Of a stretch of DNA of 64,000 nt, positions 9,996 through 61,667 are shown in pieces. A program made the translations under genes and the position numbers. This stretch comes from Yamagishiella unicocca (taxonomy: Eukaryota > Chlorophyta > Chlorophyceae > Chlamydomonadales > Volvocaceae): the NCBI GenBank assembly GCA_003116995.1, contig BDSL01000136.1, positions 162,749-226,748 of the forward strand. The letters run 5' to 3'. How positions within the stretch are numbered: position 1 is the first letter of the stretch; every line of letters starts with the position of its first letter. The notes beneath the pieces are model-generated. The model saw nothing but the letters and a program-made list of their open reading frames with translations, searched no databases and was not told the DNA's origin.

Positions 9996-9999
9996 AGTC

Positions 10000-23202: not shown

Positions 23203-25039
23203 CTACAGGATTTCGTCGGCCAGAAGCTGTCCTTGCTCCATATCTGCATCCTGTATGGTCACGGGTCCAGGTCCAGTAGTTTAGAGGCGTTATGGTTGTC
23301 ATCTGGTTGGTGGGGGCCTATCAGGTGTATGGGGGGCCCGTTGTCTACCCGTGGGAGGTCAGCAACAGCAACAACAGCGTGCTTCACCTTCATTCGCAAC
23401 ATTTGTTCCCTGATAAAGTTGACCAGCACCGAGTATGCGCCCTGGGTCTGAGAGGCTGGCTTCACGATGTTGATGTGGTCGGCTTCCACCCTCTCCCTGA
23501 CGCAGTCGTCCAGGAATGCAGAGCCCTCGGGGACGATGACCTGGGATCCACCAACGAGCCCGGGCTGCGGCAAAGAACACCAGGGCCCATAAGTACGCAG
23601 GGGCACAGCGGTGGGCTCAGTTCCTTGCGGCCAGAACCCCTGCAGTCCTACAACCGTACTAACACTGAAATCATTTCTGGAATACCGGGCAAATTCATTT
23701 TGGGTCATGTGATGTCGAGCAACCCGCAGGAAATTCCCACCTGCGGACCTGTCACGAAAATTTAAGCAAGGCAGGGATCGTACACGTCGTGCCTGGTCTG
23801 AGAGTGCCATGCCGATGTGTACTCTTGCCAGGCTGGATAGCCCAGAGTGTTACTAGCCCGGGTTTTGTGCCCTGTGAGGCCAGCCAGTCTTGTGCGAGCA
23901 CTTCAATCGTATAACGATAGCCGACATGCTCCGTATTTTCAGGGACTTCCGATCAGACATACGGTATGGAAGTCACAATTGGCCCTAATCCGGGATGAGA
24001 CGGGGAAGGAGTGAAACCCCCCCAGTGGCTTTGCGCGAATAGGAATGAATCTGAACGCCATCAGATAGGTGGCGGATGGAGGTTCTAGGAGCCCAATCAC
24101 CCCTACATACGGTCCCCCCCTACATACGTACCAGCTGCAAGGGCTTCTGTTCAGCGAAGCAAAGGACGCGAACCTTGTCGGGTATCGCTCCGAAGAACCG
24201 GGCCTTGACATGTTCGTTCGCCTTGTTGAAGACCTCCAGGTACCCCAGCAGTGACTGGTTCAGCTGCCCGTTTACCAGAGCAGCGGCACTCGCCAGCAGC
24301 CCGTGGGCACGGGCCGCAATGGGCGATCCGTTGTGCGGCGTGGCGTAGTAGACCAGCGCGCAAAGGTTGTCCTTGAAGGCGGCTGCACGACGATGAGTCT
24401 CTTCAGACTCATTCCCAGATGTACTGAAGACCTGTGCTGAGTGGACCATCGCGTTCATCATCAGACCACCCATGCTGTGCCCCACCAGCACCACTTTGCG
24501 CCTGTCCCAGCCCACAGCCACTTGCGTGGAGATGAGCTGTCGGAGCAATGTGTCCGCGGCCGCCTCCAGCACAAAGTCCTCCTCGCCAGGGACCAGCTGG
24601 CGGTTTGCCTTGTAGCTAACCGAGAGGATTCGGGCCCGGTTAAATCCCTCCTCCTTCGGCAGCCACTCGGCAGGCCAGAGCACCTGCAGTTCGGGAGAGT
24701 GAGCGGACCCAATGCACAAGCCAGCAGCCGGCGGGAGATTTCAGATGCGATGGCGGCCGGGGGGCAGTCACCGTGCGCCTGGTGAGGTGCGTGCTTCTTC
24801 TCAGGGCTGGCAATCGCAAATGCAAATAAGTGTAATGTACTGAACAGGTTCGTTCGTAGGGATCTCACCTTGCCATTGAGTGTATCCGACGTCCATGTGT
24901 GTTTCCAGGCTTTGCATCCAGTTTGAAGGTCGTGTTGAAGACCATGAATGAACACGAGGTCGAAGGTCATCCCCACTTCCGACTCGCCATCCAGACGGTA
25001 GATCCCGTACTCGCCATTTAGCAACAGCTCCCGAGGCTC
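23203..25039 (-). CDS. SERAC1-like alpha/beta-hydrolase, stand-alone paralogue of the HNL gene
   Basis: Four exons in phase: 25,039-24,869, 24,683-24,128, 23,740-23,388 and 23,250-23,203, giving 375 residues plus an unresolved N-terminal exon. All introns are GT-AG. Motifs are FDLVFIHGL (oxyanion strand), VGHSMGG (nucleophile elbow) and ADHINIVKP (probable catalytic His). The first three exons match the 46.4-44.7 kb gene closely. Exon 4 starts with the same DADME as the longer gene but then diverges and stops after 15 residues, so the NB-ARC and LRR parts are absent. SERAC1-type proteins are lipid or ester hydrolases. The open frames and splice sites argue for a functional gene, not a relic, but expression is unknown. 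Confidence 0.75.
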
Positions 25040-26066
25040 CTGAGGACAAGCAACGGGGCAGCGTCTTTGCGCGCGCGACGTTTACGAGATGGTGGCTGCC
25101 TACCTTTCACACCTGGTGGCCCGGCGCAGCAGATACGTGGGTTACAGCGCTTACCGTTACCGCTGTTACCCGGTACTTCGTAGACTCTGTCTGTAGACTG
25201 CGGGGGCTGCTGCATCTATCGCTGGGGCAGCCGCTCCATCCCCAAAGAACTAACGCGGTTCTGTAAGGAGGCCTAGGAACCAACAATATTGGCTTGTGTA
25301 TCGACAAGCCCGCTGTGTCATGAATGCTGCACCGGTTGTGCAAGGTACGTAGATAGTAGTCCCGTAGTTCCCGACCAAATACTCCCAAGTTCTCTGAAGT
25401 ACTGCCCAGGTCCTCAAGTGATCACGTTCCTTGCCAAGCGCCACCCGGCTGGTCGCTTCCCAGGCCAGGTTTATCCCGGCCTCCCATCCTCGGCGGAGTC
25501 TTCGAGCCGCTACTAGTAACTTGAGCTTCTCACAAGTTAGCACAAGCCAGTTCAGGCCTTCTCTCGAGCCCGGTGCCGGTCGTGCGCCCTGCTGGTCGGT
25601 TTACAAAGACATCCGCCACCTCCAGTCCTGACTTAAGCGATGAAGGGCTGCTGGGCCTCCGAAAGCACCCCCTTCACTTACTCGTTCCCCCCGAACCCCC
25701 CAACCACCGGCCGCGGCCGCCACGCACCGTCATGACTCGTAGACGACGAGGTGGGCGGTTGGAAGCTCCGCGAGCCGACGTACGAGCGTGAATGTAGGCC
25801 TGGAGATTGTCGAAAGCGCAGACGCAGCGGGATAGGTTATCTTGTTGGCTGACTTGATGTCCGGTCCGAGTTATGTCCCGGCGTTGTCACTGGAACTCGC
25901 TGACACACATATGTCGCCTATTCATACCCGCTTTTGTCCCTTAAGGCAGCAAGTCTGGTGCTGGCGAGGATTACAAACTTTGAGCTCGTAAGGCCCAGGC
26001 GAGCCAGACGGGCCAGCACTGTGCCCGTAATGCGTAATGTTATGCAGAGAATACGCGCATAATAAT
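25040..26066 (-). promoter_or_regulatory. Upstream region of the hydrolase-only gene, shared with the HNL gene
   Basis: Contains a possible first exon (ATG at 25,215; QQPPQSTDRVYEVPGNSG), which is also present at 46,569 in the longer gene. Its donor phase does not fit the next exon, so the true start is unresolved. The rest is non-coding sequence shared by both copies and therefore likely to carry the promoter of both genes. Confidence 0.4.
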
Positions 26067-38740: not shown

Positions 38741-39818
38741 TTAAAGAATGCGTTTCTAGGCGAAGCCCTCCCCCGCCTTTGTCGTTCGAGGTCGCTCGTG
38801 CACGCAGCGCCAGCCGTCCTTGATTTGTGGCAGCGCCGGCGTCGGCTGTGTCGCGAAGCGTCGGTGTCATTTCGAGGTCGCGTGTGCATGCACCACGAAG
38901 CATCCTGCACGTATGCAGGCGCTGGCGTCGGCTGCATCGTGAAGCGTGCATGAAGGCGAAGGGGGGAGAGCGGTTTGGTAGGAGATGGTCCTTTATTCCA
39001 GGAGCCCAGGACACTGGCATTGGTGCCCATCTGCGTGGGTTACAGAGGTGAAGCTGAGCGCGCCAAGCCGCCTGTTTCGGAGGCGTCGGAATCGGAGCGC
39101 CGAGGAGGATCAGGTGGATGTGTGCTTATGGTGTTTATGTCACACGGCAGGAATGCCCGGCGAGCCCCACCAGGACCTCGGGTGCTGTGGCAATTGTGGC
39201 ATCTAGGGAGGTCAACAAACATCCCTACAATCGCTCCTGCAGGCCTTCCCAGCAATGCCTGCTCGGTCGCCTGCGCACCTACCGGCACGCCTCTCTCTCC
39301 CCAACATCTCAGCGCTGCGGTAATAGAGCGGTGCCAAGTAGAACCACACCATGTAGCACCACACCTTGCGCGCCCAGCACCTCATTCCTGGCCACCTGGA
39401 CAGCACGATCGTCCCCATCATCATCACCATCGCCACCACCAATGTCATCATCCTGCGTAAAATGATAATTGAAGGACCGCACGCGGCCCAATCCGCATGA
39501 GGCAGCAACCGAGTCCACCAGTCACAGTACCTGCTCCCAAACGTCTACGGCCTGTGCCAAGGGGTCTCACGCTACGCAAACATGGCCCCCCGTGCTAACA
39601 CTATCCACCAGCAACCTCCCCCCCCAGGTACGCCCGCACCATATTGCCGTATCGCCTGCCACGGCCCATGCCCACCTTGCCCAGCGCCCCGTCCCAAATG
39701 CCGTGTTCACTGATATGGACCCCCACCCCACCCGCCGTGTAACCGGTTATGGTCCTCTCACCACCCCACACACAACAGGTCTTCTGGGTTCCATTCAGCA
39801 AGGTGTTCACCGCTGTCC
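38741..39818. other. 3' flank of the HNL gene; no gene recognised
   Basis: Begins with degenerate R3-like sequence and continues into lower-GC sequence with CATCATCACCATC-type triplets near 39,415. Overlapping open frames on both strands are unrecognised. The 3' untranslated region of the HNL gene presumably lies at its right end. Confidence 0.35.
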
Positions 39819-40346
39819 TCACCGCTGTTTTAACCGCTGTGCTATCTCACTGTTGATATCGGACACAATATCAGCAAGGCAATCGCGCAACGGAACCTGA
39901 CATGACGGTGCATCGGAACGCAACACGTCGCGTCCCACCTTGGACTCAATGAGCATCACGTGAGCATCCAGAGCCTTCCACTGTATGTCATCTGGATGGG
40001 CGTTCTGCATCCATCCATAGGCGCAGTTATTGAGGAACGTCTCCACGTAGTACGGATGCCACCTGCCGTACACGTCGCCAAAGACGGGAAGGTCGTCCAT
40101 GTACAGGTTGTTGGGTGGATACCTTTCCTCCATCTCCGACCGTTTACTCCGCCAATGCTTCATGCATGCAGCATAGTTCGCCACCTGGTCTGCTGGTCCC
40201 CACTTGAGAAGGGACCGCCCCTCCAGGTCAGCGCGCCGGCCCTGCAGACTGGGCAGCAGCTCCCAACAGCCAGTGAGGTGCAGGCGGGAAGGCAGTACCC
40301 CCTCGGGCAGATCCTTCAGCTTGACACAGAAGCTGAGGTCCAAGTC
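39819..40346 (-). CDS. HNL gene, exon 9: last LRR and C-terminal region
   Basis: Begins after GATCGGATCTGCAG and finishes a leucine-rich repeat (DLDLSFCVKLKDLPEG). The following about 140 residues (WGPADQVANYAACMKHW, later VETFLNNCAYGWM and VSDINSEIAQRLKQR) contain no domain I recognise; they are rich in Trp, Tyr and charged residues. TGA at 39,819-39,821. Many receptors of this class carry post-LRR domains of unknown fold. Confidence 0.85.
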   Translation of the reverse strand, partial: DLDLSFCVKLKDLPEGVLPSRLHLTGCWELLPSLQGRRADLEGRSLLKWGPADQVANYAACMKHWRSKRSEMEERYPPNNLYMDDLPVFGDVYGRWHPYYVETFLNNCAYGWMQNAHPDDIQWKALDAHVMLIESKVGRDVLRSDAPSCQVPLRDCLADIVSDINSEIAQRLKQR

Positions 40347-43300
40347 CTGCAGATCCGATCACGGGTGTGGCGTGTCCGGGGTCATGAACCGCATGGGTGG
40401 CACGTGGGGGCTCTAGCTACCAGCAGTCCTAATTCCTTCACCAGTTGTGATCAGATGCTACTACATACAACAGCACCGAAACACTCTCATGACATGTTCA
40501 CAGCCTCAACTGACAAGGTCTGACAGGGGTTTAGGGTTCCTGACAGCTGATCTGGAATCTGTACATCCTACCATACTTCAGCAATGCTCTCAATGAGACC
40601 TTGTGGGCACCAGCCAGGCGCTAGCAATCCATCTTAGGTTCCAGCATGTAATCAGCTGACCACCCTCATAACTATTTTAGTACATAGACCCCACCGGCAT
40701 ACCTACCTCGAGCGCAGTAAGCAAGCTGAACGAGTCAGGCAACTGCTCCAAGTCAGCGCAGAAAATCAGGTCCATCTTGCGCAGTGACCTCAGGCTGCCA
40801 ATGTCACCTGGCAGCTGGGTAAGATACAAGCAGCCGGCAAGCTCCAAGTTCTCCAAAGCGCTGAGGCAACCAAAGCCGACGTCTGGCAGGGTTCCCAGGC
40901 TCAAGCAGTAGTTGAGACGCAGCGTCTGGAGGCAGGTCAAGTTGCTTATGGTAGCCGGCAGCTTATGTACATCTGAGTGGCTCAGGTCCAGGCGCTGCAG
41001 CTTCACAAGGGAGCCGATGCCGTCGGGCAGACCAGTCAGCTTGTGACAGGCCTTCAAGTTGAGCTCCTCCAACCGCGTCAGGCCCGACACAGCGTCCGGC
41101 AATTCCACCAGATTCTTGCAGTAGGACACGTCCAGATAGCGGAGGTTGCTCAGGCCGCCGAGCGATGTCGGCAGCTTTGCAAGTGCCCAGCAGTAGCGCA
41201 GATCCAACTTCTCTAAACACGCCAGGCCGCCCAAGCTGTCGGGCAGGCGCTCGAGCAAACCGCAGTCCCTCAGATTGAGCGTGTCCAATGCCCCCAGATT
41301 CCCCAGCGCCTCGGGCAGTCCCGTCATGTGCCTGGCGCCATAAAGGTCCAGCACGCGCAGATTGGTCATCTCTGGGAGCCGCTCAGCAAGGTGCTGCAGC
41401 TCTGACGCTGCCAGGTTGCGCAGCCACAGCACCTTGAGCCTGGGCATGTCTGCTGCTGCGAGACTGGCCACTCCAGTTACACTATCGAGCGCAAGAAACT
41501 CCAGCTCTTCCAGTCCCATACTGAGGTGGGTTTTGAGCTCCACGTGATGCAGCCGCAAAAACCTCGTGTCATCACTGAACTGGTGGTGCACCTTGCCACG
41601 AATGATTGCGAGCTTGACCGCCCAACTGTACTTGGAGGACGCCACCTTCAACATCTCCTCCTCCAGGTATGCTGCCGGCCTGTGAAGCAAGTGGATGGAA
41701 TACAACCATGCAAAAGCCGTAAGCTTTGGTAATATGGTACGGTGGCATGTATGCGCGGTCGAGAATGGCTAGGACGGGGAACAAGCGAGGCTGTGGGAGG
41801 CCATGGGAGGCAGGCACGCCCCTGCTTTATCCAGTCGCCATGGCTAGGTCTTGGCGTCATCCAGGCCACTGATGTGCCTAGCTTCACCACCTCCGTCGCT
41901 GTATGTAGCTAAAAACAAACAGGAACGAAGGCCCCTACGATACCCTTCTTCAACAGTGTTTTCTGCGTTCTACCTTTCAGCCATGCAACCCCCATTTCCA
42001 CTTACCTGCCTACCGTCCTGTTTCGGTTGCCGTTTCCCCTAAAACCCCTCTGTCGCCTGGCCACGATTCCCCAGTTAATCCTCAATCTATGATGTCGGCC
42101 CCATGGCCTTGAGGTAGGAGCCACCAGGGTTCACTTTTTTCTCATAATCCGCTTCGATTCACCCATCCTTCACTTGAATGTGCTCACCAAAATTTCTTGT
42201 CATGATAAACGTCGGACTTGATGTATTCCTCGGCATAATCCCGCAGCGCGTCATGCACTCGGATCTGCCGCCCCTTGTCCTCCATCAGCAGGGAGCGCTT
42301 GATTAGCAACTTGATTCTCCCTTTACCGTACAGCAAATCGCACCAGTGATCGAGCCAGTCGCGTGGCTGGCCCGGCGGAAAGAACAGGGCCACGTCCAGG
42401 AAGCACTGACGGGCGTTATAGTTCATCTCATGGTCTTTATCATCACCCTCTAGGCTGGCGATTAGCACCGTGTTGTTTGACTGCCCATGAAGAGGCGATT
42501 TCCCCTTTACTTCCAGGTTGTTGAGCACATCCTTCCAATCGCTGAGTTCCATTTTGTTGGCGAGTATGCCCCCCAGGATCCGAAGTTTCAGAGGCAGGTT
42601 GTGGCAGGATGGCAACAGCTGTTTCACCACCTCGTCGAGATCCTGACGGCTGCACTTCAGCCTCTCAGCGATGGGCCCACTGTCCTCTGTCTTGCATTCA
42701 TTCGCGAAGAGTTGAAGGATCCTTGCGCAGTCATCCTGCTCGAGGAACTATGGGCGGGTGGCAGGGTGGGACAGGGGCCGGGAGTGAGCGAGGGAAGCGA
42801 AGTTTAACAGCAGGTAAAAAAATAGTATGTGGTGAACAGTGATGACCCCAAAGAAGGGAGGAGGAAGCAGACTCCACTCGAACAGGCAGCCCACATGTAG
42901 GCATGTAAGAGCGTGACATGCATGTGTGACCTGCTAAATGACGAGGGTAAGATGGCACCCCCTTCATCCCGCCAGTATGGCGCTCGTATGCCTACCGCCC
43001 TCAGGAGTAGTAGTGTTAACTAAGTCTTACTTTAGGAACAAGCATGCATCGTCAACCCTTGACATGTTCCCGAGGAAAGGGTTTTTCCACCCCTACCATT
43101 GTACTTACCGGCATCGGCATCACAGTGGATGCATCATGCAAACTTGGGGATCCCCAAAGATCCGACCCATTCCGCGAGGTGATGAGCAGCCAAGATTTGG
43201 TATTCTTGACATTGTGCACCAGCTTCTCAACCGACTCCGGAACTATCGTATGCAGGGTGTCCATGTCCCATACGTCATCCAAGATGAGGAGATAGCGCTC

Positions 43301-46300
43301 TCCCTTGTCTTGAAACACCTGATCGCGATTGCCCACTGCGTTGTCGACAACCTTGAGGCCTTTGAAGAACGTTAGCAGATCTATCTGCAGCTTGTCAATG
43401 CCCTGTTGGCCGGGGTCCTTCCGAACCTGCTCAAGAGAATCACATGGGATGCGTGGAAGGGCACACACGCGGCCGTTACTTAATTCCTGTCATTTGCCTC
43501 GTGGCTCACCAACAACAAAAAAACAAGCTGGTCAGGTGCGGGGAAGGCAGAAGGCGGAGGACTACAGCTCACAAGCCTGAGGCCAGTATGGGTTTAGGAT
43601 GCACCAAAACACTGGGCCAGTAAAGGTTTAGGGTGTATAACACCACTTGTGGCCCGGAAGTGCAACAAGACAGATATAACGAATGACCAAGGGCATGTCA
43701 AAACACGCTCGGGGGTGAGTCATTTGAATCCTGGCAGCGGCAACCCATTGCAACTAAGCAGACACAACGGTGCAGCTGGACTGGGCCACACAGAAACCCA
43801 GGGGTCCAGGCGACCCACACAGGTAGGTGTAACACATACACATACATGTACACGTACACCTGTGGAAGTAGATGGGTACCTGCCTTATTACTTGCAGCCT
43901 TCATTACCATACCGCAACATGACACGTACTTGACACAACATCATCCAAGGGTGCGACACACACAATAGCAAGGAACACACAGCCTCATATGGGGCCGCCC
44001 AAAACGTCAAGGTAGGGTAGGGCTACTGTAAGGGCCCAACCCTCTCCATCATACCTCCAGTCGGAGGACCCGGCCATGGAAGTCCGGATTGATACACCAT
44101 TCGTTGTAGAAGGCCATGGCAAGGGTGCTTTTGCCGGAGCCACCGAGACCATTCACGATGACCACGCTCTTCTCTTCGAACTTGGAACGCACTCCATCAA
44201 TCCATTGCATCCGAGCAACAGCGTGAGCATCCATCATCCCGATCTCATCAAGTTGCGGATTCATCTGTCCCGATGGAACAAACCGGATACGATGGCAGGA
44301 GGGGGCACATCAGCAGCAGCATGTGGTGTTTTGTCGGTCACACACTGTGAAGGGCCCTTCACTCTGGAGGTGTTCTGAAGACCAACACGCCCAGTCATCT
44401 AGTGAGCCTCCGTCGCAACTACCCCACCATTTCAATACCCTACAGCGCTGCATACTGCATGGGACTATACTTCGTTCGGCAATTGCAGCAACAGCAGCCT
44501 GCTTCACCTTCATCCGCATTTGTTCCTTGATGAAGTTGACTCGCTCCATGTCTGCGTCCTGTATGGTCACGGGTCCAGGTCCAGTAGTTTAGAGGCGTTA
44601 TGGTTATCGTCTGGTTGGTGGGGGCCTATCAGGTGTATGGGGGGCCCGTTGTCTACCCATGGGAGGTCAGCAACAGCAACAACAGCCTGCTTCACCTTCA
44701 TCCGCACCATTTGTTCCCTGATAAAGTTGACCAGCACCGAGTATGCGACCTGGGTCTGAGAGGCTGGCTTCACGATGTTGATGTGGTCGTCTTCCACCCT
44801 CTCCCTGACGCAGTCGTCCAGGAATGCAGAGCCCTCGGGGACGATGACCTGAGATCCACCAACGAGCCCGGGCTGCGGCAAAGAACACCAGGGCCCATAA
44901 GTACGCAGGGGCACAGTGGTGGGCTCAGTTCCTTGCGGCCAGAACCCCTGCAGTCCTACAACCGTACTAACACTGAAATCATTTCTGGAATACCGGGCAA
45001 ATTCATTTTGGTTCATGTGATGTTTAGCAACCCGCAGGAAATTCCCACCTGCGGACCTGACACGAAAATTTAAGCAAGGCAGGGGTCGTGCCTGGTCTGA
45101 GAGTGCCGTGCCGATGTGTACTCTTGCCAGGCTGGATAGCCCAGAGTGTTACTAGCCCAGGTTTTGTGCCCTGTGAGGCCAGCCAGTCTTGTGCGAGCAC
45201 TTCAATCGTATAATGATAGCCGACATGCTCTGTATTTTCAGGGACTTACTATCAGACATATGGTATGGAAGTCACAATGGGCCCTAATCCGACATGCTCT
45301 GTATTTTCAGGGACTTACTATCAGACATATGGTATGGAAGTCACAATGGGCCCTAATCCGGGATGAGACGGGGAAGGAGTGGACCCCCCCCCCAGTGCCT
45401 TTGCGTGAATAGGAATGAATCTGAACGCCATCAGATAGGTGGCGGATGGAGGTTCTAGGTCCCCCCCTACATACATACCAGCTGCAAGGGCTTCTGTTCA
45501 GCGAAGCAAAGGATGCGAACATTCTTGGATCGCGCTCCGAAGAACCGGGCCTTGGCATGTTCGTTCGCCTTGTTGAAGACCTTCAGGTACCCCAGCAGTG
45601 ACCGGTTCAGCTGCTCAGTGCCACTCGCCAGCGGCCCGTGGGCACAGGCCGCAATGGGCGATCCGTTGTGCGGCGTGGCATAGTAGACCAGCGCGCAAAG
45701 GTTGTCCTTGAAGGCGGCTGCACGACGATGAGTCTCTTCAGACTCATTCCCAGATGAACTGAAGACCTGTGCTGAGTGGACCATCGCGTTCATCATCAGA
45801 CCGCCCATGCTGTGCCCCACCAGCACCACTTTGCGCCCTTCCGAGCCCACAGCCACTTGCGTGGAGATGAGCTGTCGGAGCAATGTGTCCGCGGCCGCCT
45901 CCAGCACAAAGTCCTCCTCGCCAGGGACCAGCTGGCGGTTTGCCTTGTAGCTAACCGAGAGGATTCGGGCCCGGTTAAATCCCTCCTCCTTCGGCAGCCA
46001 CTCGGCAGGCCAGAGCACCTGCAGAGGATGCGGCGGTTCGGGAGAGTGAGCGGACCCAATGCACAAGCCAGCAGCCGGCGGGAGATTTCAGATGCGATGG
46101 CGGCGGGGGAGCAGTCACCGTGCGCCTGGTGAGGTGCGTGCTGCTTCTCGGGGCTGGCAATGGCAAATGCAAAGAAGTGTAATGTACAGGTTCGTTCGTA
46201 GGGATCTCACCTTGCCGTTGAGTGTATCCGACGTCCATGTGTGTTTCCAGGCTTCGTATCCAGTTTGGAGGTCGTCTTGAAGACCATGAATAAACACGAG

Positions 46301-46381
46301 GTCGAAGGTCATCCCCTCTTCCGACCCGCTATCCAGACGGTAGATCCCATACCCGCCATTTCGTGACAGCTCCCGAGGCTC
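39819..46381 (-). CDS. HNL-type immune receptor-like protein: alpha/beta-hydrolase, NB-ARC and LRR
   Basis: Nine exons joined in phase by GT-AG introns: 46,381-46,211, 46,018-45,475, 45,048-44,696, 44,558-44,508, 44,264-44,055, 43,426-43,109, 42,735-42,188, 41,679-40,707 and 40,346-39,819. Together they make 3,696 bases (1,231 residues and a stop), and the first exon is still missing. Order: SERAC1-like hydrolase (about 1-345), linker, NB-ARC (about 400-730), LRRs (about 735-1,080), and a C-terminal region of unknown fold. Both split codons (exons 2-3 and 7-8) restore sensible residues. The layout is that of the HNL class reported in liverworts. By analogy it should be a nucleotide-switched sensor with an enzymatic N-terminus; ligand and output are unknown. 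Confidence 0.88.
40707..41679 (-). CDS. HNL gene, exon 8: leucine-rich repeats
   Basis: About 324 residues with at least ten plant-type LRR units, for example LPEALGNLGALDTLNLRDC and LPDSLGGLACLEKLDLRYC, following the LPxxLxxLxxLxxLxLxxC pattern of resistance-type receptors. The first about 60 residues before the repeats link to the NB-ARC end. The exon begins after CTTGCTTCACAG and ends at CTCGAG/GTAGGTATG. Joining to exon 9 gives LTALEDLDLSFCVKLKDLP, which completes a further repeat and so supports the junction. The array is expected to sense a ligand or hold the protein inactive. Confidence 0.92.
42188..44264 (-). CDS. HNL gene, exons 5-7: NB-ARC nucleotide-binding domain
   Basis: All core motifs of a plant-type NB-ARC are in order: P-loop NGLGGSGKST (Lys about 418), kinase-2 YLLILDDVWD (Asp about 493/494, with the terminal Trp typical of non-TIR receptors), RNBS-B SWLLITSRN, GLPL-type NLPLKLRILGG, RNBS-D CFLDVALFFP and an MHD-type IRVHDALRDYA with Val in place of Met. 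The domain binds ADP/ATP and switches the protein between off and on. The conserved catalytic and switch residues suggest that it is functional. Intron phases: 0 after exons 5 and 6, and 2 after exon 7. Confidence 0.92.
44508..46381 (-). CDS. HNL gene, exons 1-4: SERAC1-like alpha/beta-hydrolase domain and linker
   Basis: Key residues: FDLVFIHGL with the start of the hydrolase core, then WPAEWLP, VGHSMGG (Ser about 127), YYATPHNGSPIA and DDHINIVKP (His about 327, probable catalytic His). Exon 2 is four codons shorter than in the 24-kb paralogue. Exon 3 ends at ATG-AAG before a GTGAAG donor. Exon 4 has only 17 codons (DADMERVNFIKEQMRMK) and ends at the same ATG-AAG/GTGAAG junction, and its last eleven residues resemble the end of exon 3 (VNFIREQMVRMK). 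SERAC1-type enzymes act on lipids; the substrate here is unknown. Confidence 0.85.
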
Positions 46382-47520
46382 CTGAGGACAAGCAAGGGGG
46401 CAGCGCCTTTGGGGCAGCGTCTTTGCGCGCGACATCTATGAGATGGTGGCTGCCTGTCTATCACACCTGGTGGCCCGGCGCAGCAGATACGTGGGTTACA
46501 GCGCTTACCGGTACCGCTGTTACCCGGTACTTCGTAGACTCTGTCTGTAGACTGCGGGGGCTGCTGCATCTATAGCTGGGGCAGCCGCTCCATCCCCAAA
46601 GAACTTCGAAAGGAGGCCTAGGAACCGGCTTCGTAAGGAGGCCTAGGAACCAACAATATTGGATTATGTATCGACAAGCCCGATGTGTCATGAATGATGC
46701 ACCGGTTGTGCAAGGTACATAGATAGATAGTAGTCCCGTCCTGGTCCTCACGAACTAAGCGGCAGCAGGGCCCGCTGGCATCGGTTCCCGTCCAAATACT
46801 CTCAAGTTCTCTGAAGTATTGCCCAGGTCCTCAAGTGATCGCGTTCCTTGCCAAGCGCCAGCCGGCTGGTCGCTTCCCAGCCAGGCTCATCCTGACCTCC
46901 CATCCTCGAATCCAGCGACGGAGTCTTCAAGCCGCTACTTGTAACTTGAGCTTCTCACAAGTTGGCACAAACCAGTTCAGGCCTTCTCTCGAGCCCGGTA
47001 CCGGTCGTGCTGCTGGTGGGTTCTCAAAGACATCCGCGACCTCCAGTCCTGACCTAAGCGATGAAGGGCTGCTGGGCATCCGAAAGCCCCCCTTAACTTA
47101 CTCGTTCCCCCCGAACCCCCCAACCACCGGCCGCGGCCGCCACGCACCGTCATGACTCGAAGACGACGAGATGAGCGGTTGGAAGCTCCGCGAGCCGACG
47201 TACGAGCGTGAATGTAGGCCTGGAGATTGTCCAAAGCGCAGACGCAGCGGGATAGGAATTCTTGTTGGCTGACTTGATGTCCGGTCCGAGTTATGTCCCG
47301 GCGTTGTCACTGGAACTCGCTGTCACACATATGTCGCCTATTCATACCCGCTTTTGTCCCTTAAGGCAACAAGTATGGTGAGGGCGAGGATTACAAGCTT
47401 TGAGCTCGTAAGGCCCAGATGAGCCAGACGGGGCCCGTCAGACGGGGCCCGGAGCGCGTCAGACGGGGCAGCATTGTGCCCGTAATGCGTAATGCCATGC
47501 AGAGAATACGCGCGTAATAA
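46382..47520 (-). promoter_or_regulatory. Upstream region of the HNL gene (shared with the 25-26 kb copy)
   Basis: Holds the candidate first exon with ATG at 46,569 (also at 25,215 in the paralogue) and an alternative in-frame ATG at 46,435 that is not present in the paralogue. Neither can be proved. The remaining about 900 bp match 25.1-26.07 kb, apart from a small CAGACGGGGC amplification near 47,430-47,465. Joint conservation suggests that promoter elements lie here. Confidence 0.4.
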
Positions 47521-47730
47521 ACTAAATTTTAGACTATTCTAAAATTCGGTTCTAAGAGGTAGTTGGCCTGGGCGCTCCAGGAGGGGGCCTGGGCCTGGTG
47601 TTGTTGGCCGAGGCGACGGCGCCGTGTTGTTTCTCCGTTCACCTCACTTTGAGGAGTTGTCGCTACGCACCTGTTTGTTCCGGTCTGCGGAGTGCGGGCG
47701 GGTTAGCCATCTAGTTTCGGATCCGCGGGC
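47521..47730 (+). other. Unique upstream sequence with a short perfect hairpin
   Basis: ATTTTAGACTATTCTAAAAT (about 47,525-47,544) is an 8-bp inverted repeat around a 4-base loop, just beyond the border of the segmental duplication. GC- and T-rich sequence follows up to the ATG at 47,731 and could be a leader. Confidence 0.4.
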
Positions 47731-49143
47731 ATGCAGTCGCGCGGGAGTGTCTGGTTCGCTGATCGCGACTCGCCGAGTTTTGTTTCAGCCATGGGAGAAC
47801 CGACCGGCACCAATCTCGCAGCAAGGGCAACCAAGCGAACCAGGGCCATTGCAATGGCGGACATGAACAGCCTGTCCCTCGCCAAAGGGCCCGAAGACGC
47901 TGCTTTAGACTCTATATGGCTGCAAACAACTCGCGCGGCCAATGATCAATTGGCGAACCTACCACCAACACCAGCAACCGGCAAAGATCTGTACGCACCT
48001 CAGCGCAGAACGATCTCCGCGGGGTCACAGGGAATCCTGCACCAACTCACCGTGCGTTATGGGATGCTCAACGAGCAGAAGCAACGATTCGAGACAGCTA
48101 TCCTCGACCTCACAAACATGGCCCAGGCCGCCGCCAACCAGCTCGTCGCCGCGGCCAACAATCTCCCCCAACAAGGTAGACAAGCCGCCCCACAGATAAC
48201 GGGCGGTTCCGCAGCGCTGTACACTACCAGAGTGGCTGCAGCAGCTGGAGCAGGCGGGTCCAGGGGAGGACCCACACCGTCAGCAGCCGGAGCAGCGACG
48301 TCGGACAGACCCAGTGGGGCAACCGCCGGTGCACCACCCAGTGGGATCGGCGGTGTCCACAACCAGCCCTGCCGCCCCCCCCTGTGCCCGGCGGAGTTGG
48401 GGACTCCGCCGCTTCCCCTGCCCCCTTCCCTTCTCCCTTGTGCCCGGCGGAGTTGGGAACTCCGCCGGTTCCCCTGCCCCCTTCCCTTGTGCCCGGCGGA
48501 GTTGGGAACTCCGCCGGTTCCCCTGGCCCCCCCCCTCCCTTGTGCCCGGCGGAGTTGGGAACTCCGCCGGTTCCCCTGCCCCCCCTCCCTTGTGCCCGGC
48601 GGAGTTGGGGACTCCGCCGGTCCCCCCCCTCCCTCCCTTGTGCCCGGCGGAGTTGGGGACTCCGCCGGTTCCCCTGCCCCCTCCCTTGTGCCCGGCGGAG
48701 TTGGGGACTCCGCCGGTTCCCCCCCCCTCCCTTTACCTGTAACCCCCCTCCCTTGTGCCCGGCGGAGTTGGGGACTCCGCCGGTTTCCCCCCCCCTCCCT
48801 TGTGCCCGGCGGAGTTAGGAACTCCGCTGGTTCCCCTGCCCCCCCTCCCTTGTGCCCGGCGGAGTTCGGGACTCCGCCGGTTCCCCCCCTCCCTCCCTTG
48901 TGCCCGGCGGAGTTGGGGACTCCGCCGGTCCCCCCCCCTCCCTTGTGCCCAGCGGAGTTGGGGACTCCGCCGGTTCCCCCCTCCCCTCCCTTGTGCCCGG
49001 CGGAGTTGGGAACACAAGGCTTGGCGGGCCACCGGCCCAACCGCACCACGGGCCTGGCCGGGTCAAATGGCGCGGCCCGACCTTTGGATTCGCCTCGGCC
49101 GGGCGTGGCCGGGCGCCCGCGGGAGTTGATAACTCCAGCCTGA
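47731..49143 (+). CDS. Hypothetical protein: helical N-terminus, then minisatellite-encoded Pro-rich tail
   Basis: The first about 210 residues look like real protein, with balanced composition and a likely amphipathic helix (VRYGMLNEQKQRFETAILDL followed by NMAQAAANQLVAAANN), then an Ala/Gly/Ser/Pro linker. From about 48,380 the frame is made of a Pro/Leu/Cys-rich repeat encoded by the minisatellite and is unlikely to be genuine. The real gene may splice before this point or have been broken by expansion of the minisatellite. No family was recognised. Confidence 0.4.
   Translation: MQSRGSVWFADRDSPSFVSAMGEPTGTNLAARATKRTRAIAMADMNSLSLAKGPEDAALDSIWLQTTRAANDQLANLPPTPATGKDLYAPQRRTISAGSQGILHQLTVRYGMLNEQKQRFETAILDLTNMAQAAANQLVAAANNLPQQGRQAAPQITGGSAALYTTRVAAAAGAGGSRGGPTPSAAGAATSDRPSGATAGAPPSGIGGVHNQPCRPPLCPAELGTPPLPLPPSLLPCARRSWELRRFPCPLPLCPAELGTPPVPLAPPLPCARRSWELRRFPCPPSLVPGGVGDSAGPPPPSLVPGGVGDSAGSPAPSLVPGGVGDSAGSPPLPLPVTPLPCARRSWGLRRFPPPSLVPGGVRNSAGSPAPPPLCPAEFGTPPVPPLPPLCPAELGTPPVPPPPLCPAELGTPPVPPSPPLCPAELGTQGLAGHRPNRTTGLAGSNGAARPLDSPRPGVAGRPRELITPA
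48385..49010 (+). repeat. Minisatellite of about 50 bp with a GGCGGAGT...ACTCCGCC hairpin core
   Basis: About thirteen units of CCCTTGTGCCCGGCGGAGTT followed by GGGGACTCCGCCGGTTCCCC and a C-rich spacer of varying length. The core GGCGGAGTTGGGGACTCCGCC is an 8-bp inverted repeat with a 5-base loop. The hairpin stem resembles the CCGGAGTCCCCACTCCGG core of the 70-bp satellite farther on. Confidence 0.92.
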
Positions 49144-49534: not shown

Positions 49535-52132
49535 CCACCCCCGGAGTCCCCACTCCGGCGACTCCTGCGACTCCTGCGACTCCGACGTTCCCCCAGCTTC
49601 TAAGGCACCCCCGGAGTCCCCACTCCGGCGACTCCTGCGACTCCTGCGACTCCGACGTTCCCCCAGCTTCCTAAGGCACCCCCGGAGTCCCCACTCCGGC
49701 GACTCCTGCGACTCCTGCGACTCCGACGTTCCCCCAGCTTCTAAGGCACCCCCGGAGTCCCCACTCCGGCGACTCCTGCGACTCCTGCGACTCCGACGTT
49801 CCCCCAGCTTCTAAGGCACCCCCGGAGTCCCCACTCCGGCGACTCCTGCGACTCCTGCGACTCCGACGTTCCCCCAGCTTCTAAGGCACCCCCGGAGTCC
49901 CCACTCCGGCGACTCCTGCGACTCCTGCGACTCCGGCGTTCCCCCAGCTTCTAAGGCACCCCCGGAGTCCCCACTCCGGCGACTCCTGCGACTCCTGCGA
50001 CTCCGACGTTCCCCCAGCTTCTAAGGCACCCCCGGAGCCCCCACTCCGGCGACTCCTGCGACTCCTGCGACTCCGACGTTCCCCCAGCTTCTAAGGCACC
50101 CCCAGAGCCCCCACTCCGGCGACTCCTGCGACTCCTGCGACTCCGACGTTCCCCCAGCTTCCTAAGGCACCCCCGGAGTCCCCACTCCGGCGACTCCTGC
50201 GACTCCGGCGACTCCGGCGTTCCCCCAGCTTCCTAAGGCACCCCCGGAGTCCCCACTCCGGCGACTCCTGCGACTCCTGCGACTCCGACGTTCCCCCAGC
50301 TTCTAAGGCACCCCCGGAGCCCCCACTCCGGCGACTCCTGCGACTCCTGCGACTCCGACGTTCCCCCAGCTTCCTAAGGCACCCCCGGAGTCCCCACTCC
50401 GGCGACTCCTGCGACTCCTGCGACTCCGGCGTTCCCCCAGCTTCCTAAGGCACCCCCGGAGTCCCCACTCCGGCGACTCCGGCGACTCCTGCGACTCCGG
50501 CGTTCCCCCAGCTTCCTAAGGCACCCCCGGAGTCCCCACTCCGGCGACTCCTGCGACTCCTGCGACTCCGACGTTCCCCCAGCTTCTAAGGCACCCCCGG
50601 AGTCCCCACTCCGGCGACTCCTGCGACTCCTGCGACTCCGACGTTCCCCCAGCTTCTAAGGCACCCCCGGAGTCCCCACTCCGGCGACTCCTGCGACTCC
50701 TGCTGCGACTCCGACGTTCCCCCAGCTTCCTAAGGCAGGCACCCCCGGAGTCCCCACTCCGGCGACTCCTGCGACTCCTGCGACTCCGGCGTTCCCCCAG
50801 CTTCTAAGGCACCCCCGGAGTCCCCACTCCGGCGACTCCTGCGACTCCTGCGACTCCGACGTTCCCCCAGCTTCTAAGGCACCCCCGGAGTCCCCACTCC
50901 AGCGACTCCTGCGACTCCTGCTGCGACTCCGACGTTCCCCCAGCTTCCTAAGGCAGGCACCCCCGGAGTCCCCACTCCGGCGACTCCTGCGACTCCTGCG
51001 ACTCCGGCGTTCCCCCAGCTTCTAAGGCACCCCCGGAGTCCCCACTCCGGCGACTCCGGCGACTCCTGCGACTCCGACGTTCCCCCAGCTTCTAAGGCAC
51101 CCCCGGAGTCCCCACTCCGGCGACTCCTGCGACTCCTGCGACTCCGGCGTTCCCCCAGCTTCTAAGGCACCCCCGGAGTCCCCACTCCGGCGACTCCTGC
51201 GACTCCTGCGACTCCGGCGTTCCCCCAGCTTCTAAGGCACCCCCGGAGTCCCCACTCCTGCGACTCCGGCGACTCCGGCGACTCCGGCGTGCCCCCAGCT
51301 TCCTAGGCACCCCCCGGAGTCCCCACTCCGGCGACTCCTGCGACTCCTGCGACTCCGGCGTGCCCCCAGCTTCTAAGGCACCCCCGTAGTCCCCACTCCG
51401 GCGACTCCTGCGACTCCTGCGACTCCGACGTTCCCCCAGCTTCTAAGGCACCCCCGGAGTCCCCACTCCGGCGACTCCTGCGACTCCTACGACTCCGACG
51501 TTCCCCCAGCTTCTTAAGGCACCCCCGGAGTCCCCACTCCGGCGACTCCTGCGACTCCTGCGACTCCGGCGTTCCCCCAGCTTCTAAGGCACCCCCGGAG
51601 TCCCCACTCCGGCGACTCCTGCGACTCCTGCGACTCCGACGTTCCCCCAGTTTCTAAGGCACCCCCGGAGTCCCCACTCCGGCGACTCCTGCGACTCCTG
51701 CGACTCCGGCGTTCCCCCAGCTTCTAAGGCACCCCCGGAGTCCCCACTCCGGCGACTCCTGCGACTCCTGCGACTCCGACGTTCCCCCAGTTTCTAAGGC
51801 ACCCCCGGAGTCCCCACTCCGGCGACTCCTGCGACTCCTGCGACTCCGGCGTTCCCCCAGCTTCTAAGGCACCCCCGGAGTCCCCACTCCGGCGACTCCT
51901 GCGACTCCTGCGACTCCGGCGTGCCCCCAGCTTCCTAGGCACCCCCGGAGTCCCCACTCCTGCGACTCCTGCGACTCCGGCGACTCCGGCGTTCCCCCAG
52001 CTTCTAAGGCACCCCCGGAGTCCCCACTCCTGCGACTCCGGCGACTCCGGCGACTCCGGCGTGCCCCCAGCTTCCTAGGCACCCCCCGGAGTCCCCACTC
52101 CGGCGACTCCGGCGACTCCGGCGACTCCGGCG
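49535..52132 (+). repeat. 70-bp satellite array, forward (about 37 units)
   Basis: The unit is CACCCCCGGAGTCCCCACTC, then CGGCGACTCC and two or three GCGACTCCT words, then GACGTTCCCCCAGCTTCTAA. Each unit has a CCGGAGTCCCCACTCCGG hairpin. Because 70 is not a multiple of three the frames rotate, so the open frames reported in it are not genes. Variants include units with CAGCTTCCTAAGG and units whose triplets read GGCGACTCC instead of GCGACTCCT. Confidence 0.95.
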
Positions 52133-52475
52133 TGATAAATAATTAATAAAATATTAAAAAAGATTATATTAATATTTTGTTATAATATCTCTGTTTGCCT
52201 GACCACCCCAGGCCCCCAGCTTCCTAGGCACCACCGGAGTCCCCACTCCGGCGACTCCGGCGACTCCGACGACTCCTGTACGACAAGTCCGACTGCCGAC
52301 AAGCAGCCAACATACGCTTTATTACACCATTATTCTTGTAGTTGTGCTACAAATGTTTTCGTTGAGTTCTTGAAGCCCAACTTGTACGGCTTGCCAAATT
52401 GCTCGAGACGTCAAGAGAAGTTGCGACCTTCTTGCCTATTTTTGCAACATTAGTTACTTTGGTGATGATCAAAGA
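52133..52475 (+). other. AT-rich block and 5' flank of the DUF3987-like fragment
   Basis: A run of about 60 A/T bases (TAATTAATAAAATATT and following) is succeeded by a last satellite remnant and by about 150 bp that match, inverted, 56,274-56,610. The ATG present in the inverted copy (before SYQGDDQR) reads ATT here, so this copy has lost that start. Confidence 0.6.
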
Positions 52476-56274: not shown

Positions 56275-56609
56275 GCTGCAAAAATAGGCAAGAAGGTCAC
56301 AACTTCTCTTGACGTCTCGAGCAATTTGGCAAGCCGTACAAATTGGGCTTCAGGAACTCAACGAAAACATTTGTAACACATATACAATAATAATGGTAGA
56401 ATAAAGCGTATGTTGGCTGCTTGTCGGCAGTAGGCCTTGTCGTACAGGAGTCGTCGGAGTCGCCGGAGTCGCCGGAGTGGGGACTCCGCCGGGGCTGGGG
56501 GGCCTGGGGTGGTCAGGCAACCAACGCTGGGCGTACGACAAGAACAGAGATAATATAACAAAATATTTAAATATTTAAATATTTTATTACTATTTATTAA
56601 CTACCTAGC
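56275..56609 (-). other. Inverted 5' flank and AT-rich block
   Basis: Mirror of 52,133-52,475: the flank shared by both copies, a short satellite remnant (GGAGTGGGGACTCCGCCGGG near 56,475) and an AT-rich run (ATATTTAAATATTTAAATATT near 56,560-56,590). Confidence 0.65.
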
Positions 56610-59600: not shown

Positions 59601-59993
59601 GGAGTCGCCGGAGTGGGGACTCCGGGGGTGCCTTAGAAGCTGGGGGAACGTCGGAGTCGCAGGAGTCGCAGGAGTCGCCGGAGTGGGGACTCCGGGGGTG
59701 CCTTAGAAGCTGGGGGAACGTCGGAGTCGCAGGAGTCGCAGGAGTCGCCGGAGTGGGGACTCCGGGGGTGCCTTAGAAGCTGGGGGAACGTCGGAGTCGC
59801 AGGAGTCGCAGGAGTCGCCGGAGTGGGGACTCCGGGGGTGCCTTAGAAGCTGGGGGAACGTCGGAGTCGCAGGAGTCGCCGGAGTGGGGACTCCGGGGGT
59901 GCCTTAGAAGCTGGGGGAACGTCGGAGTCGCAGGAGTCGCAGGAGTCGCCGGAGTGGGGACTCCGGGGGTGCCTTAGAAGCTGGGGGAACGTC
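56610..59993 (-). repeat. 70-bp satellite array, reverse (about 48 units)
   Basis: Same unit as 49,535-52,132 in the opposite orientation, more homogeneous than the forward array over most of its length. Small deletions occur (for example AAAGCTGGG near 57,374, GGAGTGGGACTCC near 57,700). A run of 24 G breaks one unit at 59,554-59,577. Confidence 0.95.
59554..59577 (+). other. Run of 24 G inside the satellite
   Basis: G from 59,554 to 59,577 replaces the middle of a satellite unit, leaving GGGGTCGCAGGA on the left and ACGTCGGAGTC on the right. No other unit of the array shows such a run, so I suspect a sequencing or assembly artefact. Confidence 0.7.
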
Positions 59994-61667
59994 GGAGTGG
60001 ACATTGGAGTCTCCGGTAATTTACATAGGAGTATAAATGACTCCTGTGGCAATGTATCCTGCCGTCGGTATAGCGCACCTCGTAGGCCTTGGGTCGAGCA
60101 TCCTGACCCAGGAAATGAGCCTCTCCCCCGAGCACAGAGTCCTCCAGCGTCACCGGGTCGGTGTACTTACGTCGTACAGCCCGCCCGTCCAGAGCAGACG
60201 CCGCTGCCAAGCGGCGTCGCTGATCAGCGCTGAGGAAAATCTGCGGTGCGGGAATGGCAGCTTCCGGGAGGGGTTTGACCGCCAGCTGCTCCGCGGTGAT
60301 GCCTGACGCGATGCACTCCGGGCAGACCCAGGCGCCAGCTGGCACAGTTTTCAGCGGCGGCTTAAGGCAGTGCGTGTGCCATCCAGTGCCACACCCGTCA
60401 CAGAGCAACATGACCTCCTCCTTATCCGGGAACCCACAGACTTCGCACGCTAAGTTCAGCGACGGCACTGCGAGCCTGGGGTCCTCGATGGGGTCTAAGT
60501 CGGAAAGGTGGCACGGCCTGAGGTTGGTGACATTCTCCTTGCGCTATCAGTGCTGCACCGACCCCGCAAAGTGGCCACCCCTGCTGCCGTCACCTCGATG
60601 ACACGAAGGACGTTCTCCCTGGTCGGAACCTGAAGAGTGCTACGGCGGTTGCGCTCCACAACATACACGTAGTCACCTGGCTCATAACGACCGAAACACG
60701 GCTTATATCCGCCCGCGCGCACCCGAGCATACCGGTGCTCGCGATGCTGGAGATCAGGAGATTGCCCGCAGCAGCTGGCATCATGTGGCGCACCGCCTCA
60801 GCGCGCAGTGTGAGGTATTGGTGAAAGTGCGCCTCCTGTGCGACATCCAACGGCGCCTCGAACCGTTGACGCAGGCTGGCGGTACGACTACTGGCTCCAC
60901 CCCGTAGAGCAGCACGTATGGCGAGAAACCTGTTGAGGCTTGTGGCGAGCAGTTGTAGCCAAGAGTCAGCCAGGGCAAGTAGTCATCCCAGTTACGCGCT
61001 GAGCCTTCAGCCGCACAGGACTTGCAGAGCGACCGTTTCAACACCTGCACTATCCGCTCCGATGCTCCATCGGCTTGGGGATGGTTAGGCAAGGTGCGGC
61101 GATGATCGATGAGGCACTGCTCGCACAGCGCCGCGAAACAGCCTTCCCACTCAGTGCCCCTATCAGTGACCACCTCCGCTGGGGCTGAGAACCGTGACAG
61201 CACTCGCTCCAGGAATGCACGGCCAGTCTCATTGGTGTCTTTTTGGTAGGGCTATGAGCTCCACATGCTTGGTGAAGTGCTCAATGCACACCATGACCGG
61301 TGCCGTTGGGCATGATGCGATGCAGGGTTGCCCCGGCTACACGGTACGACTGAGCGCGCTTGTTGACCCGCTGCTCATCCGACGGTAGCTCCTTGCTGAA
61401 ACTGCCGTGGCGTAGTAGGTGGTGCAGCTGCGTGTCGTCCCATGGATCCATGAGCTCCGCTGACGGCTGGAGGTCAGTGGTGGCTGCAACCTCCGCGAGC
61501 AGCACTGTGCAATGCTCCAAAGCTGGTGCTGCCCGCGTCGCCATCGCCAGATAAGCTGCCGGCCTATCCGCTGAGTCCAGAGACACTTCCCCCCCCGCGG
61601 AAAGGCCGGGGCTCAATGGCGTAGCGTGGACGTAAATTCGCCATGTGATGAGGTGTGAGGAAGGCAC
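59990..61667 (-). pseudogene. Ty3/gypsy integrase with C-terminal PHD finger, internally deleted and frameshifted
   Basis: Read on the minus strand: an RNase H/IN spacer (61,667-61,281, ending LHRIMPNGT), then the integrase core (VCIEHFTKHVELIAL, VVTDRGTEW with the second catalytic Asp, HPQADGASERIVQVLKRSL with the catalytic Glu, GYNCSPQASTGFSPYVLLYG), then a GPY/F-like region (YEPGDYVYVVERN) and a PHD finger (CEVCG, MLLCDGCGTGWHTHCL, WVCPEC; 60,440-60,280) followed by a Tudor-like tail (YEVRYTDGRIHCHRSHL). The zinc-binding HHCC part and the segment with the first catalytic Asp are missing between PNGT and VMVCIEH. Frame changes lie near 61,250 and 60,545. The satellite cuts the end off at about 59,995. 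Confidence 0.85.

Follow-up and report, generated by a model that had tools for sequence, protein, structure and literature searches.

The exons between 46435 and 39819 on the minus strand of the window (the whole stretch of 64,000 nucleotides that was analysed) are predicted to encode one intracellular immune receptor of HNL type in a likely volvocine alga, with a hydrolase head as its output; we give this reading a probability of roughly 0.6. We call the gene HNL-type and do not treat it as an established member of the liverwort class, because its NB-ARC is CNL/RNL-like in pairwise comparison, its kinase-2 motif ends in Trp and one intron phase is unlike that of liverwort HNLs. If this is one gene, as predicted, a design so far known from liverworts and mosses would also exist in an alga. 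An earlier sequence-only reading had taken the genome for an algal one, and its 161 matches to the pherophorin domain make a volvocine chlorophyte very likely as the host. A second LHC exon (L026) did not help to place the host, since its best solved chain scored 2.2e-52 and land-plant chains 2e-51.

Gene model and gene copies

The features of the locus are as follows.

39819..46435, minus strand: whole gene model of HNL type (hydrolase, NB-ARC, LRR), 8 in-frame exons, 1,176 aa
46211..46435, minus strand: exon 1, start of the hydrolase (FDLVFIHG), 5' end uncertain
45479..46018, minus strand: exon 2, hydrolase core with the GHSMGG elbow, Ser145 at 45809-45811, TPHNG and Glu249 at 45497-45499
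44696..44872, minus strand: exon 3, end of the hydrolase, catalytic His285 at 44783-44785
44508..44558, minus strand: optional 51-base exon, DADMERVNFIKEQMRMK, which nearly repeats the end of exon 3
44055..44264, minus strand: exon 4, P-loop GLGGSGKST, ATG at its start
43109..43426, minus strand: exon 5, RNBS-A to RNBS-B, kinase-2 LLILDDVWD
42188..42747, minus strand: exon 6, ARC and winged helix (NLPL, CFLDVALFF, VHD), predicted fold like plant NLRs
40707..41679, minus strand: exon 7, leucine-rich repeats
39819..40346, minus strand: exon 8, last in-register LRR and C-terminal part, stop at its end
39017..48970, minus strand: ~10-kb duplicated segment, second copy on contig C88 at 6544-16447
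23232..26065, minus strand: partial copy that runs from the upstream region through hydrolase exons 1-3 into the start of intron 3 and lacks NB-ARC and LRR

The hydrolase, NB-ARC and LRR exons were found on the minus strand where the sequence-only reading had placed them, with GT-AG at the borders of the predicted exons and intron phases that agree. On the other hand, its uninterrupted 1,231 residues were not reproduced (1,176 aa in the preferred model, 1,157 or 1,193 aa when the ninth exon at 44508-44558 is added), and its nine exons and eight introns became eight and seven, the ninth exon being optional. In the predicted model six of the seven introns are in phase 0, while intron 6, at the NBS-LRR boundary, is in phase 2. 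GC content was 71.8% at the third codon position of the exons versus 51-61% across the seven introns. Exon 1 may start at ATG 46435, which is missing from the partial copy, or may receive input from an upstream exon via the acceptor-like AG before 46381.

The duplicated segment on contig C88 is 97.5-99.3% identical and includes the gene once more in full, at 97-99% identity; both full copies are intact, and exonic indels were absent. The partial copy shares 85-94% amino-acid identity per exon and retains the catalytic residues. Exon-by-exon searches with queries from the alga itself and from Marchantia located only three hydrolase places in the genome, and the 11 NB-ARC candidates scored left only two, namely the two full copies; no larger hydrolase or NLR family was found in the host by such searches, which can miss split or divergent genes. 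The surroundings of the locus are rich in repeats.

Domains, motifs and relatives

In the spliced protein, the NB-ARC scored 69.8 bits (Pfam; E 2.8e-19, cut-off 23.5) and LRR_14 reached E 4e-28, with at least nine LRRs present, whereas the hydrolase stayed under its cut-off (Abhydrolase_6, 24.1 versus 26.3 bits). By sequence comparison the hydrolase is clearly homologous to liverwort, fungal and bacterial hydrolases. It carries the SERAC1/SesB-type hallmarks: the GxSxG nucleophile noticed before (GHSMGG at the elbow, exon 2), an acid, a His and TPHxG, with Ser145-Glu249-His285 intact (Glu249 being assigned as the acid by conservation, not from structure). Fold comparison of exon 2 alone gave weak alpha/beta-hydrolase-like matches, none at E < 1e-3, and matches to anti-phage models were likewise weak (best E 5.5e-4 for the hydrolase exon and 6.8e-4 for the P-loop exon) and were taken as generic.

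Every core NB-ARC motif is in place, as had been claimed: P-loop, kinase-2, RNBS-B, GLPL, RNBS-D and MHD motifs accompany the above-threshold NB-ARC and the LRRs, as in plant NLRs. What had gone unremarked is that kinase-2 is of the CNL/RNL type: it ends in Trp in the alga, in 11/11 CNL, 2/2 RNL and 2/2 bacterial-type rows, and in 0/8 liverwort HNL and 0/3 TNL rows (classes assigned from Pfam domains and names, save six rows classed by judgement: P0009, P0029 and P0036 as bacterial, P0022 as CNL, P0024 and P0030 as fungal). The head is a hydrolase; neither a TIR head nor the Rx_N or RPW8 head of CNLs and RNLs was present among the 25 of 29 Pfam rows listed for the protein, and PF01582 (TIR) was without a match anywhere in the host genome.

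The hydrolase-NB-ARC-LRR order, in what is predicted to be one protein, is present in the exon model, and the sequence-only reading had recognised the same HNL-type order. It is shared by the best relatives of residues 1-700, which are liverwort NB-ARC proteins (E 3e-31, 26% identity, 89% coverage). The head aligned with liverwort heads across almost its full length with Ser-Glu-His retained, and Calypogeia HNLs gave the best match to the LRRs among the fetched proteins; the C-terminal part of exon 8 was without a relative among the 46 proteins fetched. When the NB-ARC alone served as the protein query, the matches were nine NLRs whose domains are those of CNL, TNL or RNL, the best at E 1.3e-6. 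Five of them bear names, all of angiosperms, and four do not; no HNL and no named alga was among the nine. Thus the liverwort link is not carried by the NB-ARC alone.

Phylogeny and origin of the domain combination

The algal line parted from the liverwort and moss line long before land plants. The sequence-only reading had held that an HNL in a chlorophyte means either an origin older than land plants or repeated origins; exactly these two readings remain, and the trees of both domains lean liverwort-ward, undecisively. In the hydrolase tree the alga stood next to the liverwort heads (91/88, not decisive). In the NB-ARC trees it was sister to HNL+TNL (84/80 and 84/87, not decisive), on a long branch, and the best trees did not recover HNL as a single clade. 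(P0004 and P0012, with a broken domain, were excluded from the NB-ARC trees; both hydrolase trees omit the split N-head of P0012, and the second one also omits the N-head of P0003 as well as P0004 and P0014.) The NB-ARC phylogeny, which had been proposed as a check, leaned to the HNL+TNL side (84/87), and the AU test weakly rejected a clade of the alga with liverwort HNL alone (p 0.035 and 0.047). Groupings of the alga with CNL (0.174) or RNL (0.343) were both unrejected. The alga joined green-plant NLRs apart from bacterial-type rows at 99/94, though AU still allows the alga with bacteria (0.174). Fungal heads formed a separate clade in the hydrolase trees (92/92 and 99/94); a fungal origin of the head by transfer is not favoured, though for the hydrolase alone AU did not reject the alga with fungal heads (p 0.139 and 0.090).

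An independent fusion of a SERAC1-type hydrolase with a CNL/RNL-type NB-ARC-LRR in the chlorophyte line, convergent with liverwort HNLs, is a serious contender that we place a little below even odds. Pointing to it are: i) in pairwise comparison the NB-ARC matched CNLs best (P0038, E 1.4e-15; P0041, 1.7e-15), ahead of the top HNL (P0014, 1.6e-11); ii) all 14 solved chains that match residues 1-677 (E up to 0.1) are CNL or RNL by name, and none is a TNL; iii) the kinase-2 Trp is shared with CNL and RNL and absent from liverwort HNL and TNL rows; iv) the AU test weighs weakly against alga+HNL and permits alga+CNL and alga+RNL; v) the NBS-LRR intron is in phase 2 rather than 0, and additional introns lie within the NB-ARC; vi) hydrolase-STAND pairs recur, as fungal sesB-like/NACHT and sesB-like/NB-ARC proteins in the available part of one source (PMC4986451) and as adjoining hydrolase and NB-ARC-TPR genes in a Sulfurovaceae MAG (locus L035); and vii) Sphagnum hydrolase-NLRs have already been inferred to be independently acquired, according to passages of Chia 2024 (PMC11218826). 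Against it stand the liverwort-ward lean of both domain trees and the Calypogeia HNLs as best match to the LRRs. Moreover the kinase-2 Trp also occurs in bacterial-type rows and may simply be the older state, so it was not taken to shift the odds.

Alternatively, and more tentatively, hydrolase-headed NLRs may date back to the ancestor shared by chlorophytes and land plants. In that case the algal receptor would be outgroup to HNL+TNL as a whole, and hence an enzymatic head would be ancestral in that branch of plant NLRs; this lipase-type output would later have been replaced by TIR in some lines and have become a pseudo-enzyme in Riccia. Excerpts of a 2023 review (PMC10952240) have hydrolase heads first appearing in bryophytes, and the available text of Chia 2024 names two streptophyte algae and lacks the word "chlorophyte". 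Our literature search found no chlorophyte HNL; Feng 2024, on algal NLRs in Plant J and outside its scope, may report one. Whether inherited or convergent, such a receptor in a probable volvocine alga would carry the design outside streptophytes, and it opens to testing the sequence in which plant NLRs exchanged their heads.

Integrity of the locus

The locus could instead hold two neighbouring genes, perhaps partners as in bacteria. Exons 1-3 would then form a separate hydrolase gene with its stop at 44567, and an NB-ARC-LRR gene would begin at ATG 44264. This reading arises because retention of intron 3 would extend exon 3 by 42 codons to that stop, in a frame also kept in the partial copy, and because an in-frame ATG opens exon 4; in addition, the partial copy comprises the hydrolase side only, and the hydrolase and NB-ARC of L035 are distinct genes with an 11-base overlap. 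We consider it unlikely, as the liverwort relatives are single predicted proteins of the same order, some Marchantia HNLs proved by RACE to be transcribed (PMC3352924), and the partial copy ends within intron 3 as expected of a truncated duplicate. Furthermore, the stop and the ATG are ~300 bases apart, so there is little space for a terminator and a promoter.

That the locus is decaying or non-catalytic, with unconstrained duplicates and a protein that is unmade or has no enzymatic role, we judge distinctly improbable. It would fit the truncated copy, the repeat-rich setting, the Riccia heads without catalytic residues and the lack of purifying selection between the recent copies. However, that comparison has low power at 17 changes, with no stop expected in about half of simulated neutral cases; both full copies are intact with zero exonic indels, and motifs and catalytic residues are retained across very deep divergence.

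Contamination with foreign DNA, the earlier reading's own refuting case, is rejected as highly improbable: liverworts are the best relatives and no alga appears among the matches with organism names (several being nameless), but liverwort identity is only ~26%, contig C136 holds part of a LINE ORF common to 21 other contigs at 97% or more (several with pherophorin-domain matches), and contig C88, with the second full copy, has at least 11 pherophorin-domain rows.

Proposed mechanism

Under the single-receptor reading, the LRRs would hold the receptor off and detect a pathogen product or an altered host protein, whereupon the NB-ARC, in which P-loop, kinase-2, NLPL and VHD are all there, would swap ADP for ATP. 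Receptors might then assemble on the model of plant resistosomes, and the clustered heads could cleave a lipid or another ester via Ser145-Glu249-His285, leading through membrane damage or a lipid signal to cell death. We infer the lipase-type output from the head's sequence. A single-locus receptor among the genetically tractable kin of Chlamydomonas and Volvox would offer a way to ask what such hydrolases cut.

Comparison with known systems

Fungal sesB-like NLRs have the head family and catalytic residues in common with the alga (8/8 fungal-type heads compared), whereas the fungal matches combine them with NACHT/NPHP3_N-type nucleotide-binding domains and WD40, ankyrin or other repeats in place of the plant-type NB-ARC and LRR of the alga. 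Among prokaryotes, a genome scan gave at least 12 loci, and among the matches listed only L035 also fits the hydrolase profile; there the alga's hydrolase family lies beside an NB-ARC STAND ATPase, yet in two genes, with TPR for LRR and an NB-ARC within the bacterial clade. Chlorophyte NBS-LRR proteins like that of the alga are reported from Chromochloris, Botryococcus and Ulva (Shao 2019 and Andolfo 2019, via parts of PMC10952240 and PMC8891106); the same parts report TIR heads for Chromochloris and do not mention a hydrolase head for chlorophyte NLRs.

The closest design is the liverwort HNL (Xue 2012; Hyd-NLRs of Chia 2024), which has the same domain order and SERAC1/SesB-type head as the alga, a catalytic Ser, Glu and His identical to the alga's in Calypogeia HNLs, and phase-0 introns in the hydrolase and at the hydrolase-NBS junction, as in algal introns 1, 2 and 3 (only phases compared). 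On the other hand, the NBS-LRR intron is in phase 0 in liverworts and in phase 2 in the predicted algal model, and the algal gene is set apart by introns within the NB-ARC, the kinase-2 Trp, a long NB-ARC branch outside HNL+TNL and a likely chlorophyte host.

Host and gene structure

The assembly searched (133,378,104 bases in 1,415 contigs) yielded 161 matches to DUF3707, which we take to be the pherophorin domain, and 59 matches to LHC proteins. One LHCII exon had its best matches among single-domain solved chains in 9is4, 7d0j and 6kac (E ~2e-67 to 4e-67), and the first recognised land-plant chain appeared only at ~8e-61 (the assignment of these chains to Chlamydomonas or land plants being our assumption); a second LHC exon, compared with the solved chains, was uninformative about host group. 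Moreover, a LINE ORF with endonuclease and reverse transcriptase domains (window 11835-15797) had its first 323 residues near-identical (at least 97%) on 21 other contigs, several of them with pherophorin matches. Pherophorins form a large family of matrix proteins in Volvox and Chlamydomonas (PMC9818292). Thus, via the pherophorin and LHC matches and the LINE ORF shared with pherophorin-bearing contigs, the host is very likely a volvocine chlorophyte.

Both strands were read over 39.0-47.5 kb, together with the stop-to-stop frames of the minus strand and the long frames of the whole window. The gene lies on the minus strand, where splice sites were listed and exon models built. The preferred model joins eight exons into 1,176 residues, with intron phases of 0, 0, 0, 0, 0, 2 and 0 in order.

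Exons of the preferred model (window positions)
46435-46211, minus strand, exon 1
46018-45479, minus strand, exon 2
44872-44696, minus strand, exon 3
44264-44055, minus strand, exon 4
43426-43109, minus strand, exon 5
42747-42188, minus strand, exon 6
41679-40707, minus strand, exon 7
40346-39819, minus strand, exon 8

The sequence-only reading had given nine exons and 1,231 residues, a length that could not be reproduced: a ninth exon is possible at 44558-44508 (minus strand; a near-duplicate of exon 3's end), and nine-exon models gave 1,157 or 1,193 residues. The exon 7/8 splice is supported by the last LRR, which crosses that junction in register. The gene start is uncertain and an additional exon may lie upstream of 46381, because the ATG at 46435 reads ACG in the partial copy of the gene and an acceptor-like AG stands just before 46381. 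Intron 2 carries a 69-base tandem duplication (window 45220-45288) that is absent from the copy on contig C88 and from the partial copy.

Domains and predicted activity

Pfam recognised in the protein the NB-ARC at E 2.8e-19, a number of LRR families and, below threshold, the hydrolase; nine LRRs matched one strict pattern. The NB-ARC motifs are GLGGSGKST, LLILDDVWD, LLITSRN, NLPL, CFLDVALFF and VHD. Sequence comparison settles the N-terminal head as a hydrolase of SERAC1/SesB type, since its top match among 46 fetched proteins came from Marchantia and bears the name SERAC1 (E 1.7e-25), followed by HNL heads of Calypogeia and Riccia and then by fungal STAND heads. The alga and its partial copy share Ser145, Glu249 and His285 with all five Calypogeia heads, the Marchantia protein, all eight fungal-type heads and the fetched protein P0009; TPHxG occurs in the same heads, bar one fungal-type head with TPQSG. 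All three residues are lost in the four Riccia N-terminal heads. Conservation points to Glu249 as the probable catalytic acid, and with these residues the head may catalyse a reaction of esterase or lipase type.

In the N-terminal heads of Riccia P0001-P0004, which are likely pseudo-enzymes, Asp replaces the catalytic Ser. Riccia P0001, P0002, P0003 and P0012 have a second hydrolase towards the C-terminus, after which P0012 has additional NB-ARC sequence, so that it may be a merger of two gene models.

By analogy with other plant NLRs, sensing by the LRRs would free the NB-ARC, whose nucleotide exchange would allow subunits to assemble, and the clustered hydrolase heads would then act. A cell-death output is favoured, since in N. 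benthamiana two Marchantia HNL hydrolase domains reportedly caused ion leakage and HR-like responses (PMC11218826). Heads of this type are common on fungal NLRs and related to the lipase domain predicted in human SERAC1, and a connection with the bryophyte case was made in 2014 (PMC4986451).

Relatives and ancestry

Residues 1-700, searched against 5.8 billion proteins (7,995 candidates scored), gave 11 matches at the cut-off of E 1e-3: six liverwort proteins (Riccia, Calypogeia) ranked first, and the remainder were three fungal proteins, P0009 and one angiosperm CNL. A profile built with the liverwort matches (7,987 candidates scored) retrieved 27 proteins at E <=1e-10, including four further HNLs; several were nameless, and those named by organism included no alga. 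The NB-ARC alone matched nine NLRs from several classes, the best at E 1.3e-6 and with no HNL among them, while residues 1-677 matched 14 solved chains (E <=0.1) via the NB-ARC, all CNL or RNL by name. Therefore the liverwort link is carried mostly by the head and LRRs, not the NB-ARC.

In the NB-ARC tree (36 rows), the alga and green-plant NLRs were separated from bacterial-type rows (99/94, starred), HNL and TNL grouped together (96/91, starred), and the alga, on a very long branch (2.3), adjoined that group at 84/87. AU tests weakly rejected alga+HNL alone (p 0.035 in the earlier analysis, 0.047 with 36 rows) and alga+TNL (p 0.040); the earlier analysis did not reject alga+CNL (0.174), alga+RNL (0.343), alga+CNL+RNL (0.333) or alga+bacteria (0.172), the last likewise not rejected with 36 rows (0.174) despite the starred branch. 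Monophyly of HNL itself was not rejected either (p 0.303). The hydrolase tree (23 rows) placed the alga with all liverwort heads (91/88). Here alga+fungi and alga+bacteria gave AU p of 0.090 and 0.091 (0.139 and 0.137 in the earlier 25-row set, where alga with HNL N-heads alone gave 0.050 and with Calypogeia heads alone 0.062).

The trees lean towards the green side for both domains and leave common ancestry versus independent fusion unsettled. That the fusion arose in the algal line, separately from liverwort HNLs, is suggested by the CNL-like NB-ARC in pairwise comparison, the phase-2 intron and the introns within the NB-ARC. The kinase-2 Trp of the algal NB-ARC is also found in bacterial-type rows and may be the older state.

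One gene or two

In the preferred model, hydrolase and NB-ARC (switch) exons are joined across intron 3. Two adjacent genes, a hydrolase (exons 1-3) and a separate NB-ARC-LRR gene, would fit the stop at 44567 that exon 3 reaches if intron 3 is retained, the preservation of this run-on frame in the partial copy, the ATG opening exon 4, and a Sulfurovaceae MAG in which a hydrolase of this family (PF05057, 27.8 bits) and an NB-ARC-TPR protein come from two genes that share an 11-base overlap; we consider the two-gene reading unlikely, as each liverwort relative is predicted as one protein and RACE detected transcripts of some Marchantia HNLs (PMC3352924).

In the MAG (L035:1460-4496), a 298-aa gene with no Pfam match precedes the overlapping pair, and the locus looks like a STAND defence operon.

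Gene copies and surroundings

A segment of ~10 kb holding the whole gene is repeated at C88:6544-16447 with 97.5-99.3% identity. Between the full copies, 17 changes and no indels were found in 3,531 exonic bases, against 21 changes and two indels in 3,086 intronic bases; the exonic changes (13 nonsynonymous, 4 synonymous) equal the neutral expectation. The partial copy (window 23232-26065) covers the hydrolase side only and has two exonic indels of 12 bases each (one of them upstream of 46381, in sequence that may or may not be coding), and 23 nonsynonymous and 4 synonymous changes across exons 2 and 3 (239 codons). Neither set of substitution counts reveals constraint between copies at such a short time scale.

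All three copies of the hydrolase side (window 23232-26065 and 39017-48970; C88:6544-16447) are on the minus strands of the contigs that carry them, close to where C136 (the window's contig) ends and C88 begins. C136 and C88 may be adjacent parts of the same chromosome, in which case the copies would form a local HNL cluster.

Elsewhere in the window, two LINE stretches (5526-9306 and 12894-16674) are 99.6% identical, and one 70-base satellite forms two long arrays in opposite orientation (49536-52133 and 56607-59998), which flank other tandem arrays. At 59977-61251, a frame encoding a PHD finger (E 1.3e-11) lies next to an integrase-like frame (seen by eye; no Pfam match); the two may represent an LTR element that carries a PHD finger.

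Comparison with known receptors

HNLs were already reported from liverworts (PMC3352924) and NLRs from the chlorophytes Chromochloris, Botryococcus and Ulva (PMC10952240, PMC8891106), and a 2026 review ascribes unusual heads to charophytes and early land plants (PMC12856790). The accessible parts of the literature searched, which did not include Feng 2024, held no chlorophyte HNL. In view of this prior work and search, we file the gene as an HNL-type receptor, a variant rather than a proven member of the liverwort class: compared with liverwort HNLs, the algal gene is new in its host, intron features and kinase-2.
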